From [Leptolyngbya] sp. PCC 7376 (GTDB lineage: Bacteria > Cyanobacteriota > Cyanobacteriia > Cyanobacteriales > MRBY01), in the NCBI RefSeq assembly GCF_000316605.1, contig NC_019683.1, positions 2,154,036 to 2,218,035 of the forward strand: a DNA stretch of 64,000 nt, read 5' to 3'. Under the pieces are notes generated by a model that did no database searches, was not told where the DNA came from, and saw nothing but the letters and a program-made list of their open reading frames with translations. This document shows, piece after piece, positions 1,543 through 7,472 of this stretch; within the stretch, counting starts at the first letter, position 1; every line of letters starts with the position of its first letter. Position numbers and translations under genes: made by a program.

Positions 1543-2313
1543 TTACTCCTGTGACGATGGCATATTTTTCTGATTGCTAAGGAATTTTGGGATTAGCATC
1601 GGGACACGACTTTTATATTGTTGGTAACTCTCGCCATGAGCATCAACTAAATCCTTCTCTTCCCAAGGAATTGCAATGAGCATATAAAGCGTTAGAAGTG
1701 CAGCAAAGACAAAGTGAGAAATGGTCATATTTGGCGTAAACCAAATCCCAAATAAAAATCCTAAATAGAGTGGATGACGAATAACACTATAAAAAGCTGG
1801 TGTCTGAAAATCTAAATGCTCATATGGTTGTTCTCTGAGATAGAGGTAAACTTGTCGCAAGCCAAATAAATCAAAGTGATTGATCATAAATGTCGAGGCG
1901 AAGACTAATACCCAACCTACGCCACTCAGGCTATACAAAGCATAGAAAAGAAAAGAATTATCGATATGCCAAACTTGAATCCCGATTGGCTGCCAAAACA
2001 CTAATAGGGTTATTAGGCATAGGCTAGAAAACAAAACATAGGTGCTCCGCTCGATTGGTTCAGGCACAATTTTTGTCCATTTTTCTTTAAAGCTTTTTCG
2101 TGCCATGCCACTATGTTGAATGCCAAATAAAAGAATTAATGCTGCGTTAATTAGTAAGGCATAAGATAGTCCTATCACTCTTGGAGAATCTAGGGCTTTT
2201 GGGACGAATAAATTATCGACAAAGCCCATTAAATACAAGAATGTTCCGAAAAAGATGCCATAGCAAATCACGCCATAACTAAACGCACTAATCCTACCCA
2301 ATGTGTTTTTCAT
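1543..2313 (-). CDS. mddA: methanethiol S-methyltransferase-like membrane protein (NnrU/ICMT-related)
   Basis: The 256-residue protein has about six hydrophobic helices. Family marks are the N-terminal FLYLMGFVDN segment, IQHSGMARKSFK, the conserved VPEPIERSTYVLFSS block near residues 84-98, and the C-terminal RHPLYLGFLFGIWFTPNMT plus EEKDL-HG--Y--Y that binds S-adenosylmethionine in the isoprenylcysteine methyltransferase (ICMT)-like fold. MddA converts methanethiol to dimethyl sulfide with SAM. The same fold includes NnrU proteins, and substrate cannot be proven from sequence. It is a single gene with its own terminator at 1471-1500. Start is the ATG at 2313. Confidence 0.8.
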   Translation of the reverse strand: MKNTLGRISAFSYGVICYGIFFGTFLYLMGFVDNLFVPKALDSPRVIGLSYALLINAALILLFGIQHSGMARKSFKEKWTKIVPEPIERSTYVLFSSLCLITLLVFWQPIGIQVWHIDNSFLFYALYSLSGVGWVLVFASTFMINHFDLFGLRQVYLYLREQPYEHLDFQTPAFYSVIRHPLYLGFLFGIWFTPNMTISHFVFAALLTLYMLIAIPWEEKDLVDAHGESYQQYKSRVPMLIPKFLSNQKNMPSSQE

Positions 2314-2654: not shown

Positions 2655-3920
2655 TTATTTGTATTCACTAGGTAAATAGGAACACCAATCACTCCAGCCA
2701 CCAGCGTAAAGTTTGAGATTGGTGTGGCCTGTAATTTCTAGCGATAACCAATTCACACAGGCTGTTACTCCAGAGCCGCAATACAAAACTAGCTCTTGCT
2801 CTTTTGGGTATTCTTGCCAAAGTTCTTGCTGTTTCTCGAAGGGTAATGCAAAGCCATTTTCATCGGAGACAGCTTTCCAAGGGGAATTCATTGCTTCTGG
2901 AATGCACCCAGCAATGGGATCAATCGGTTCTACTTCTCCACGGTACCGCGCCGCATCCCGACAATCCAAAACAACCCATTGATCATCCTCCGCAGCCAAA
3001 AGAGCATCCCGATTAATGAGCAATTCCAACTGCATTTGAGGTTTAAAAGGTTGCTTTTTTATTGTGCAAGGAGGCTCAGGAGTGCATTGATAATTAGCTT
3101 TCTCCCATGCGTCATAACCTCCATTGAGGATACTGACATTGTGGTGTCCGTAAAATTTTAGGAGCCACCAAAGCCGTGCGGCAAAAGCAAATCGCAAATC
3201 ATCGTAAATAACGATTTCTGTTTTGCCCCGTTCAATCCCTAATTTTGTGAGAGTGGCAGTGAATTTCTCTGGATCAGGTAGGGGATGGCGGCCGCCATGT
3301 TTTTGTAGAGGTGATGACAGGTCTTCATCAAGGTGTAGGTAATGTGCGCCGGGAATGTGTGATTTTTTGTATTGAGTTCTGCCCCACTCTGTATCGTTGA
3401 GTCGAAAACGACAGTCGATAATGACAAGATTAGGATCGTTGAGGCGATCGCCTAATTTTTCGACAGAGACAAAATAAGGCGCTAAACGATTAGTCAACGT
3501 TTTTGAGATGAGCAAATAATTCTGTTGACGTTCTTCATCGTGGCAATAGTCAAGGTTTGATGCAATTTTTTTGAGGATAATAATGCCGCGTCCCCCCGAT
3601 GCAAATTCATTCACTTGCATATCGAGGTTATTGAGATAATGGTCTAAATTAAAATTATTTGGGCCATGATCCCAAATACGTATATCGAGCTGATTTTCCG
3701 CTAAGGTCAGATCAATGCCAACTGGCTGATCTTTGAGATCGTCGCCGTGGGCGTGGCGTACAGCATTTGTAAAACCTTCGGCGATCGCCATCTGACATTG
3801 CATCCAATCGTGGGGAGGGATACGGTCATGACGATTAATCCGGTTGCACTCAGCTAATACTTGATCCAACTGAGCCAAATCACTCGCAACGTGAAATTGA
3901 TATTGGTCTAAGATAGCCAA
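2655..3920 (-). CDS. fusion of an anti-sigma-type Ser/Thr kinase domain with a tandem rhodanese (sulfurtransferase)
   Basis: The 421-residue protein has three parts. Residues 1-140 are a GHKL ATPase of the RsbW/SpoIIAB type: N-box AIAEGFTNAVRHAHG (E48, N52), DHGP (D84), and the Gly-rich SGGRGIIIL. Residues 148-275 are a first rhodanese domain with Asp where the catalytic Cys would be (IVIYDD), the usual inactive half. Residues 290-421 are a second rhodanese with the thiosulfate-sulfurtransferase loop CGSGVTAC; C381 should carry the persulfide. The start is a TTG; an in-frame stop lies four codons upstream and no ATG is nearby. The gene is divergent, 53 nt away, from a response regulator-PP2C phosphatase of the kind that opposes such kinases in partner switching. 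The ATPase may phosphorylate a STAS anti-anti-sigma factor, but none is encoded in the window. How sulfur transfer is coupled is unknown. Confidence 0.88.
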   Translation of the reverse strand: MAILDQYQFHVASDLAQLDQVLAECNRINRHDRIPPHDWMQCQMAIAEGFTNAVRHAHGDDLKDQPVGIDLTLAENQLDIRIWDHGPNNFNLDHYLNNLDMQVNEFASGGRGIIILKKIASNLDYCHDEERQQNYLLISKTLTNRLAPYFVSVEKLGDRLNDPNLVIIDCRFRLNDTEWGRTQYKKSHIPGAHYLHLDEDLSSPLQKHGGRHPLPDPEKFTATLTKLGIERGKTEIVIYDDLRFAFAARLWWLLKFYGHHNVSILNGGYDAWEKANYQCTPEPPCTIKKQPFKPQMQLELLINRDALLAAEDDQWVVLDCRDAARYRGEVEPIDPIAGCIPEAMNSPWKAVSDENGFALPFEKQQELWQEYPKEQELVLYCGSGVTACVNWLSLEITGHTNLKLYAGGWSDWCSYLPSEYK

Positions 3921-3973
3921 AGGTACGGTTTACTGAGTTGCAGAAGGGTCATTTCTGGTAGTTTAGCTTAATT

Positions 3974-5116
3974 ATGATTCAGATTCTCGTTATTGATGAC
4001 GACCCTGCTATCCGTACGCTACTAAAACGCACTTTAGTACGTCAGGGTTATGACATCCACGAGGCAGATAATGGGACTACTGGCCTCGAAATGGCGATCG
4101 CCCTCCAACCGAATCTAGTGATCTGTGATTGGATGATGCCAGGTTTGAGTGGCATTGATGTCTGCCGAAAAATTAAAACACATCCACAGCTAACGACCAG
4201 TACATTTTGTATTCTTCTCACAGCCCTTGATTCGACCGAAGACAAGGTGATGGGATTAGATGCTGGGGCGGATGATTTTTTGTGCAAACCGATTGAAATC
4301 GTGGAGCTACAGGCACGGGTAAGAGCCGTTCTCCGAATTCAACAGTTAGCGCAGGATCTGCATCATCAAAAACAAAAGTTAGAAGCAGAATTCACCGAAG
4401 CAGCGCAATATGTACAGTCTCTTCTACCACCGCCTCTGAACCGCGCCCGCATCAAAATCGAAACTTGTTTCATTCCTTCATCTCAGCTTGGGGGTGATGG
4501 CTTTGATTATTTTTGGCTCGATAACCAACGTTTAGCCTTTTATCTGCTGGATGTGTCAGGACATGGCCTTAAGGCAGCTCTCCCTTCCATTGCCGTGTTG
4601 AATTTGATGCGATCACGCAATGGTCATCAAGGCGTAGATTATGGCAAACCCAAAGATGTCCTTAAATACCTCAGCACCAATTGCAAATTTATTGAGCAGC
4701 AAGAGCAATATTTTACGATGTGGTACGGCGTCTTTGATATTGACGAGCGGGTGTTGACCTATGCCAGTGCAGGACATCCACCAGCCATTTTGCTCGGCGA
4801 TCGCCCCGAGGACTATCCCCAACTTTTGCGGACGAAAGGATTTCCGGTGGGGATGTTTGAGCCTGAGGATTCTATTTACCAAGAGCAGCAGCAATATATT
4901 CCGTTCAATTCGTGTCTTTATGTCATTAGCGATGGGGTTTATGAAAACTCCCGTTCACCCGATGCCCATAAAAGTTGGGAGGATTTCTTAGAATTGCTCA
5001 TCGAGTCTACATCCCACTCAACATCGAAGCTTGACCATCTCGCGGCAATGTTGGGTGATCGCCTCCACCATGATGACTTGGAAGATGACTTTTCGATGAT
5101 GAAGTTATTACTGTGA
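3974..5116 (+). CDS. response regulator with PP2C/SpoIIE (RsbU-like) phosphatase output
   Basis: Residues 1-120 form a receiver domain with acidic pocket D8-D10, phosphoacceptor D52 (ICDWMMPG), T83 and K105-P106. A coiled-coil linker (about 122-150) leads to a PPM-type phosphatase domain at about 165-380 with the metal-binding GGDGFDYF, LLDVSGHG, ASAGHPP, SDGVYE and C-terminal DDFSMM motifs all present. Such proteins dephosphorylate STAS anti-anti-sigma factors when the receiver is phosphorylated. The divergent neighbour encodes the matching kinase-type domain. The stop codon abuts directly on the stop of the convergent formylglutathione hydrolase gene, with no nucleotide between, so the 3' UTRs must overlap. 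Confidence 0.92.
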   Translation: MIQILVIDDDPAIRTLLKRTLVRQGYDIHEADNGTTGLEMAIALQPNLVICDWMMPGLSGIDVCRKIKTHPQLTTSTFCILLTALDSTEDKVMGLDAGADDFLCKPIEIVELQARVRAVLRIQQLAQDLHHQKQKLEAEFTEAAQYVQSLLPPPLNRARIKIETCFIPSSQLGGDGFDYFWLDNQRLAFYLLDVSGHGLKAALPSIAVLNLMRSRNGHQGVDYGKPKDVLKYLSTNCKFIEQQEQYFTMWYGVFDIDERVLTYASAGHPPAILLGDRPEDYPQLLRTKGFPVGMFEPEDSIYQEQQQYIPFNSCLYVISDGVYENSRSPDAHKSWEDFLELLIESTSHSTSKLDHLAAMLGDRLHHDDLEDDFSMMKLLL

Positions 5117-5956
5117 CTATTTCAAGCTTTGGGCGTGGTGCTCAATATGATCTTTCATAAAAGTTGCAATGAAGAAATAGCTATGGTCATAGCCCTCCTG
5201 ATAGCGCAGCCGCAACGGCTGTCCGGCTTTTTCACAGGCGATCACAAACTTATCTGTTAACAGTTGATTTTCGAGGAAAGTATCTGCCTTTCCTTGGTCG
5301 ATCAGAATTTTGCCGTTAAACTGTCGCTTCGTAATAATCTGCGTCGCATCATACTTGCGCCATGTTTTTCTGTCCTCACCGAGATAAGCCGTAAACGCTT
5401 TTTCACCCCAGGCACATTGCATCGGTGCCACCACTGGTGCAAATGCCGAAACCGAGTGGTAAAAATCTGGTTTTCGTAATGCGCAGATCAGCGCCCCATG
5501 ACCACCCATCGAATGCCCAAAAATTCCCCGTTTATCTGTCACCGAAAAATTATCTTCAATTAACTGAGGCAATTCTTTGGTGACATAGGTATACATCCGG
5601 TAATGCTTTGACCAAGGCTTTTCCGTAGCATTCACATAAAACCCTGCACCACTTCCCAAATCCCAATCCTTCTCCTCATCAGGAATACCTGTGTCGCGAG
5701 GACTCGTATCCGGAGCCACGAGCATAATGCCGTGCTGCGCTGCATATTGTTGAGCCCCAGCTTTCGTTGTGAAATTTTCCTCAGTACAGGTCAACCCCGA
5801 CAGGTAATAAAGCACTGGTACTGCTTCTTGTTGCGCTTGGGGAGGGAGAAACACCGTCAACTTCATCTCCCCACCACAGGCGATCGATTGATGGCTGTAA
5901 TATCTGACCTTGCCACCGAAACAGACAATTTCTTTTTGTAAAACGAGCTTTGCCAT
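5117..5956 (-). CDS. frmB: S-formylglutathione hydrolase
   Basis: The 279-residue alpha/beta hydrolase is full length for the esterase D family. It has YYLSGLTCTEENF (oxyanion region), the nucleophile elbow GHSMGGHGA, an acidic residue in DQGKAD, and the catalytic His in YDHSYFFI. It hydrolyses S-formylglutathione to formate and glutathione, the second step of formaldehyde detoxification. It follows the gene for the first step (frmA, 6142-7251) on the same strand after 185 nt, so the two probably form one unit. The start ATG at 5956 gives the expected N-terminus. Confidence 0.95.
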   Translation of the reverse strand: MAKLVLQKEIVCFGGKVRYYSHQSIACGGEMKLTVFLPPQAQQEAVPVLYYLSGLTCTEENFTTKAGAQQYAAQHGIMLVAPDTSPRDTGIPDEEKDWDLGSGAGFYVNATEKPWSKHYRMYTYVTKELPQLIEDNFSVTDKRGIFGHSMGGHGALICALRKPDFYHSVSAFAPVVAPMQCAWGEKAFTAYLGEDRKTWRKYDATQIITKRQFNGKILIDQGKADTFLENQLLTDKFVIACEKAGQPLRLRYQEGYDHSYFFIATFMKDHIEHHAQSLK

Positions 5957-6141
5957 GACACTTTCCCCAATGACGATGTGTTGTAAATGCCGAAAATGTC
6001 CAGCATTTTCTGATGGGTCTGAACAAGTTTGAAAGGGCTTATTTTACCAACTCTTCCTTGGGGAATGGGATGAAGCCGGAAATGGTTTTGATGTTGTTAC
6101 GTCCTTTCTCTCTGAGGCTTGTCAGCCCTATGGCATTAGAT

Positions 6142-7251
6142 TTAAAAGGTGACGACACCACGAATTGATTCGCCTCTATGCATTAGATCAAAAGCATCAT
6201 TAATCTTCTCGATAGGCATTGTGTGGGTAATCAAATCGTCGATATTGATCTTGCCGTCCATATACCAATCGACAATTTTCGGGACATCGGTGCGACCTCT
6301 AGCACCTCCAAAAGCTGTGCCTTTCCAAACGCGTCCAGTAACGAGCTGGAACGGACGGGTACTAATTTCTTCCCCTGCTCCTGCCACACCAATAATCGTT
6401 GAAACACCCCAGCCTTTATGGCAACTTTCGAGGGCCTGCCGCATTACTTTGACGTTACCGATACATTCGAAGGTATAGTCTGCACCACCTTTTGTCAGAT
6501 CAACAAGATAGGGTGCTAAGTCTCCTTCCACCTCCCGCGGATCAACAAAATGAGTCATGCCAAATTTTTTGGCGATCGCCTGTTTATCGGGATTAATATC
6601 TATGCCAACAATCATGTCTGCACCGACCATTCTTGCGCCTTGAATCACGTTAAGGCCGATGCCGCCAAGACCAAAAACAATTACTTTTGAACCCGCTTCT
6701 ACTTTGGCGGTATTAATCACAGCACCAATTCCTGTCGTTACGCCACAACCGATGTAGCACACCTTATCGAAAGGGGCATCTTCACGAATTTTCGCAAGGG
6801 CAATTGCTGGGACGACAGTATAGTTCGCGAAGGTGGAGGTGCCCATGTAATGGAAAATCGTTTCGCCATCTTTAGAAAATCGACCTGTGCCATCGGGCAT
6901 TAAGCCTTTTCCTTGGGTCGCCCGCACCGCCTGGCAGAGGTTAGTTTTAAGGCTGAGGCAATATTCACATTCGCGACATTCGGGGATGTATAGCGGGATG
7001 ACATGGTCGCCGGGTTTGAGGCTTTTAACGCCTTTGCCTACTTCAACGACAACACCTGCTCCTTCATGGCCTAAAATCGCGGGAAATAAACCCTCTGGAT
7101 CAGCGCCGGATAATGTATAGGCATCGGTATGACAGACACCTGTGGCCTTAATCTCGACTAATACTTCCCCAGCTTTTGGGGGCTCTAGCTGCACGGTTTC
7201 TACAGTGAGAGGGGCTTTAGCAGAGTAGGCGATCGCCGCTTTAACATCCAT
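6142..7251 (-). CDS. frmA: S-(hydroxymethyl)glutathione dehydrogenase (class III alcohol dehydrogenase)
   Basis: This zinc- and NAD-dependent dehydrogenase shows all class III marks: catalytic-zinc ligands in [14 protein letters not shown] and GHEGAG, the four-Cys structural zinc site ([15 protein letters not shown]), the Rossmann GLGGIGL, and the C-terminal [12 protein letters not shown]. It oxidises the formaldehyde-glutathione adduct to S-formylglutathione and can also act as S-nitrosoglutathione reductase. I chose the ATG at 7251 (369 residues, the usual family length), with AAGGATT 12 nt upstream. A TTG at 7260 would add three residues but sits too close to that site. Confidence 0.95.
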
Positions 7252-7472
7252 GGGCTTCAATAATCCTTCGCTGATCTTCGTCTTATTTTTTAAATGTAGC
7301 GAGGGATCTGCGTTTCTTTTACGCTCTGCATAGATAAGTTACGTTGATCTAGATCGTGCGATCGCCCCTGTTTCAAATCACTGTTTCCGTAAAAACACGG
7401 TGCTACAAAGAAAAAGGTATTACCCAGAAACATAGCCTTTAGTTTTGATTTGTTTGAGGAGTGATTGTGACA

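Follow-up and report, generated by a model that had tools for sequence, protein, structure and literature searches.

Cyanobacterial partner switches are still poorly understood. In Synechocystis, the STAS protein Ssr1600 is phosphorylated by the kinase Slr1861, which controls SigC; PmgA is a second kinase, and the phosphatase of Ssr1600 is described as still to be solved (PMC12329169). In Nostoc punctiforme, HmpU, HmpV and HmpW constitute a partner switch whose output is the STAS protein HmpV (PMC8256260, PMC6495340); hmpU and hmpW carry the neighbouring locus tags Npun_R5135 and R5134, and hmpV is Npun_F5169 (PMC8256260, PMC6495340, PMC10581220). With regard to sulfur transfer, the endogenous H2S production of Escherichia coli depends mainly on 3-mercaptopyruvate sulfurtransferase (3-MST; PMC6599011). 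Our literature search found no description of a kinase–rhodanese fusion of the kind reported here, and as most subscription journals were outside its scope, this is not proof of absence.

The locus considered here lies in a 64-kb stretch of cyanobacterial DNA, which is called the window in the following. It contains a natural fusion that ties the putative kinase of a receiver-PP2C/RsbW/STAS module to sulfur transfer, and the sequence is best read as encoding a bifunctional protein in which a partner-switch kinase is fused to an active-looking MST. The features of the locus, in window coordinates, are:

2655–3920, minus strand: fused ORF of 421 residues with a TTG start, consisting of an RsbW-type kinase domain and an MST-type two-domain rhodanese (Pfam; full-length in six of six family genomes)
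2655–3476, minus strand: sulfurtransferase half, residues 149–421, with two rhodanese domains (Pfam, NCBIfam, structure match, loop alignment)
3492–3920, minus strand: kinase half, residues 1–143, HATPase_c_2 (Pfam, column conservation, match to RsbW structure 6m36)
3921–3973, no strand: divergent intergenic region of 53 bp between the fusion and phosphatase genes (ORF coordinates)
3974–5116, plus strand: receiver-PP2C (SpoIIE-type) phosphatase of 380 residues, with receiver D52 and K105 and PP2C D175, D193, D320 and D371/D372 (Pfam; near-invariant across 18 homologues)

The fused reading frame and its two halves

The initial annotation had described a single ORF that joins an RsbW-type ATPase to a rhodanese of two domains whose CGSGVTAC loop is intact, and translation and Pfam analysis bear this out, with coordinates and domains given correctly. 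The frame has no internal stop, and Pfam recognizes HATPase_c_2 at residues 12–131 (1.3e-19; 70.9 bits in the kinase half, against a cut-off of 27.4) together with two Rhodanese stretches (2.7e-36). No stop or frameshift separates the domains, and the two halves are not always separate genes, as the frame is stop-free, full-length and fused in all six family genomes examined, i.e., G000 (the genome of the window), G211, G493, G083, G058 and G492; the MAG Limnothrix sp. RL_2_0 (L031), which gives equal identities, and G493 appear to be one and the same genome. The dN/dS ratios between G083 and G058 are 0.021/0.55 (about 0.04) for the kinase and 0.044/0.59 (about 0.07) for the MST, and the kinase ratio between G000 and G211 is 0.144/0.93 (about 0.15); in most other pairs, synonymous sites are close to or beyond saturation, and the low dN/dS thus holds for both halves where dS is unsaturated. 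The same continuous frame in six genomes and the low dN/dS rule out a sequencing error or frameshift as the source of the fusion. That the ORF is an artefact of assembly or gene calling and really represents two genes is hardly credible, given a stop-free continuous frame in six genomes, which include one separately deposited MAG.

The initial annotation had also proposed to look for the same two-domain architecture in other cyanobacteria. For a search of the phylum, 292 genomes were drawn, 115 of which matched at E <= 0.001; full-length matches to the fusion came, among the matches listed, from only four genomes, all of the window's own family. As far as seen, the fusion is therefore confined to one cyanobacterial family, where it is present in six of six genomes, and no other family has it among the matches listed. 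A 414-aa open frame in G116 was considered as a further candidate and is an ordinary 280-aa MST when read from its first start codon. The TTG start of the fused ORF (window 3918–3920) is common to all six family genomes, and TTG is found at the equivalent place in six of 12 unfused rsbW genes examined, three of these six having another start codon upstream; the TTG start of rsbW may hold expression low. Nothing was drawn from an AlphaFold model of the fusion that was computed from two sequences, as its mean pLDDT was 52.6, with most of the kinase half below 50.

The kinase half carries E48, N52, D84, G86 and a GGRG motif at 109–112. Column conservation shows that none of the fused sequences read has lost E48, N52, D84 or the GGRG lid, and the RsbW structure 6m36 matches this half at 2.2e-4. 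The NCBIfam equivalog cut-offs for RsbW and SpoIIAB are not reached by the kinase half, which is therefore not filed as an RsbW equivalog; by its domain and residues, it would fit the serine kinase with GHKL/HATPase domain of an Rsb-type partner switch.

The catalytic loop of the rhodanese half reads Y380-C381-G-S-G-V-T-A-C388, with the C381 codon at 2778–2780, and all 31 of the 31 MST homologues aligned share this whole loop unchanged. A CGSGVT loop is characteristic of 3-mercaptopyruvate sulfurtransferases, and a CRKGVT loop of thiosulfate sulfurtransferases; the aligned thiosulfate sulfurtransferase 8agf indeed shows C-R-K-G-V-T-A-C at this position. The protein thus has the two rhodanese domains of an MST, with the CGSGVT loop in the second, and its closest solved structure is the 3-MST 1urh (1.4e-35). 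The top NCBIfam model is likewise that of 3-MST (NF008557), at 147–148 bits and hence below the curated cut-off of 250, for which reason we call this half MST-type and do not file it as an equivalog. The identity as a thiosulfate sulfurtransferase (rhodanese proper), which the initial annotation had assigned, is rejected on account of the loop and of the model and structure matches. G000, G058 and G083 each have one MST match below 1e-50, and no close MST other than the C-terminal half was found in the genome of the window; judged from the invariant residues, this half probably still transfers sulfur through C381.

The opposing phosphatase, a candidate STAS partner and the probable origin of the fusion

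The divergent neighbour had been annotated as a receiver-PP2C phosphatase and as the natural opponent of the kinase, and both points hold. Pfam places Response_reg at residues 4–117 (1.7e-27) and SpoIIE/PP2C at 184–376 (3.9e-30; SpoIIE 105.7 bits against a cut-off of 25) in the ORF beyond the 53-bp gap, and the receiver Asp and Lys as well as the PP2C Asp residues are kept across 18 sequences. As the RssB equivalog model NF045505 gives 159 bits against a cut-off of 700, the protein shares the RssB architecture and is not filed as RssB. Kinase and phosphatase form a conserved opposing pair: among the matches listed, 95 genomes of the class have both rsbW and the receiver-PP2C gene, and in 61 of them the two are divergent and no more than 1.5 kb apart, with 48–746 bp between the matches; the other 34 comprise two pairs that are divergent at about 2.1 kb and 32 in which the genes lie apart. 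The divergent arrangement is found in all six family genomes and in all seven loci read that have an adjacent MST. In G255 (L048 5933–9121), the receiver-PP2C gene is split; its PP2C matches break off at 6617 and continue from 8675, which looks like an insertion of about 2 kb.

A search for a conserved STAS partner had been suggested as well, and a candidate for such a partner was found in relatives. In 11 of the 21 loci read (20 and L031), including seven of seven with adjacent MST, the receiver-PP2C gene is followed by a STAS gene in tail-to-tail orientation, and the linked STAS has a DSSG motif in 11 relatives. No linked STAS gene was found in any of the six family genomes in the stretches read, which cover the whole 64-kb window and are short for G493, nor in the six unfused loci L043, L044, L046, L047, L049 and L050. 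When a STAS protein of G000 was used as query, its best match was the linked STAS gene in each of the 11 non-family genomes searched, which had been chosen because their loci had already been read. This G000 gene and a tandem paralogue are located far from the window (C1:1535778–1536442; L089 6776–7443, with the two genes at 6776–7096 and 7117–7443); the two are likely switch partners, and no kinase or phosphatase was recognized by eye among the surrounding listed ORFs. Three family genomes have two STAS copies of this type, and the other three have one. The linked STAS proteins are nearest to the first rather than the second G000 tandem copy in nine versus two cases by phmmer and in ten versus one by tblastn (n = 11). 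In the STAS tree, which for G000, G211 and G493 has the first tandem copy twice in place of the second and which lacks two of the 31 loci chosen, L103 (the linked STAS of G131) and L062, the family copies, ten linked STAS proteins and two further STAS rows form one supported group (97/95).

The divergent kinase/phosphatase pair and the linked STAS gene support a receiver-PP2C/RsbW/STAS partner switch, and gene linkage points to kinase, phosphatase and a candidate STAS partner as the old core of the locus. A widespread module of this type is indicated; no match to a characterized system was made. The N-terminal half of the fusion would be the serine kinase, in the role of RsbW, of this old cyanobacterial switch. 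It would bind a small STAS protein and phosphorylate it, whereupon the receiver-PP2C of the divergent gene, itself under the control of receiver phosphorylation, would take the phosphate off again. We infer these roles and the STAS partner from domains, residues and gene linkage.

Among the matches listed, MST is a separate gene on the same strand directly downstream of rsbW in eight genomes, seven of family f5 and one of family f15. At the four loci read from genus g21 of f5, the rsbW frame even extends into the region of MST homology, which is in another frame. As gap, overlap and fusion are all seen, the fusion resembles the last step of a series, and since rsbW and MST are adjacent in two other families, the fusion probably arose by joining two neighbouring genes. 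On the phosphatase tree (18 rows), a single clade of adjacent and fused loci was rejected (p-AU 0.004), with at least four state changes, and the rsbW–MST adjacency was therefore lost, or gained, several times.

The surroundings of the pair vary within the family. In the window, an MddA-type methanethiol S-methyltransferase gene (1543–2313, minus strand; NF045656, 314 bits, cut-off 270) is located downstream of the fusion and on its strand; no mddA was found next to the pair in G211, G083, G058 and G492, and the G493 contig ends too soon. On the other side, 5117–7260 (minus strand) encodes an S-formylglutathione hydrolase (fghA, 447 bits, cut-off 281.7) and, by eye, a class III alcohol dehydrogenase-like protein, which by sequence represent the glutathione-dependent formaldehyde pathway and adjoin the pair in three of the six family genomes. 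None of the three genes flanks the pair throughout the family.

Possible roles of the tether

Most likely, the two halves do separate work while being tethered in one chain. We hold with moderate confidence that the fusion was fixed in one family between two ordinary genes, tethering a partner-switch kinase to an MST, and that the halves probably work separately. The initial annotation had gone further and had suggested that the switch reads sulfur, persulfide or cyanide status. Persulfidation of C381 or turnover of 3-mercaptopyruvate would then alter the kinase half, and STAS phosphorylation would report on these compounds. The physical tether is conserved in all six family genomes, rsbW and MST are adjacent in equal order in families f5 and f15, and an adjacency that does not form one clade is compatible with repeated gain or selective keeping. 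However, among the matches listed, MST adjoins rsbW in only five of 82 genomes of the class that have both, three of the five being fusions (MST matches entered this count only where the genome also had a listed kinase), and none of mddA, fghA and the alcohol dehydrogenase gene is a constant neighbour. MST is, moreover, fused to other proteins elsewhere: two f6 genomes have it in a 669-aa ORF with a class I/II aminotransferase (G051, L145 2293–4302; G233, L146 748–2757; Pfam domain on the G051 copy, histidinol-phosphate aminotransferase-like by eye), and in G433 (L148 1254–2519) it carries a C-terminal GNAT acetyltransferase domain, with 421 aa in total. Such fusions make the fusion alone weak evidence of regulation or shared function, and it cannot serve as proof of a functional link. 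We therefore consider sulfur gating of the switch a possible but rather improbable reading. Of the initial interpretation, the single ORF, the opposing pair and the STAS gene in relatives stand; the thiosulfate label falls, and the reading of sulfur status is unproven. We give somewhat less credence still to an MST half that acts as a sensor, in which the sulfur load of C381 would set kinase activity or binding toward the unlinked STAS, with the receiver-PP2C adding a second, two-component input; if true, the partner switch would integrate persulfide metabolism with a histidine-kinase signal.

An equally doubtful alternative is that the kinase half lost or changed its catalysis after the fusion and now works as a nucleotide-binding tether or a docking arm through which the MST reaches the receiver-PP2C or the STAS proteins. 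In the kinase alignment, which included one G000 paralog (L066) of four, the other three being without an accepted match, the G1-box Gly is kept in 17 of 17 unfused kinases, none of which has Ser, and G86 is Ser in four of the six fused genomes (L031/G493, G083, G058 and G492). The five fused sequences aligned have a one-residue insertion in the G1-box loop, the stem of the fused kinases in the tree is long (1.02 changes per column), and the fused loci have no linked STAS. The Ser substitution means that kinase activity is possibly altered, and catalysis may thus be changed in part of the family. On the other hand, E48, N52, D84 and GGRG are kept in the fused sequences, the protein of the window itself retains DHG in the G1 box, and dN/dS is low, all of which speaks against this alternative. 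A coupling, if shown, would lead sulfane sulfur directly into a partner switch; without coupling, the locus illustrates cleanly how neighbouring genes can fuse without shared function.

Comparison with known systems

The kinase half resembles the Bacillus-type kinases RsbW and SpoIIAB in its HATPase domain, its E-x-x-x-N box and its ATP lid, as seen in the alignment with 6m36, but stays below both equivalog cut-offs. For the C-terminal half, the best solved match (1.4e-35), the 3-MST 1urh, which we take to be E. coli SseA, has the same two rhodanese domains and CGSGVTA loop; it is a stand-alone enzyme, whereas the protein of the window has an additional kinase domain and reaches 147 of 250 bits on the 3-MST model. 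The phosphatase has the receiver-PP2C architecture of 3eq2, presumably the RssB-type protein of P. aeruginosa and the best solved match at 2.5e-38, and differs by its 159 bits against the RssB equivalog cut-off of 700.

Among cyanobacterial systems, Slr1861/Ssr1600/SigC with IcfG is, likened by description, similar to the present locus in combining an RsbW-type kinase, a STAS substrate and a phosphatase, and partner switching was shown there; Slr1861, a kinase of the icfG operon, however, stands alone, and the source, as far as consulted, mentions neither a receiver-PP2C nor a sulfurtransferase (PMC12329169). HmpU/HmpV/HmpW is, again by description, a comparable phosphatase–STAS–kinase trio, but one for which the sources, as far as consulted, mention no sulfurtransferase (PMC8256260, PMC6495340, PMC10581220). 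The fusion is real and conserved and represents a variant of known modules; mechanistically, it most likely tethers a partner-switch kinase to an MST that looks active.
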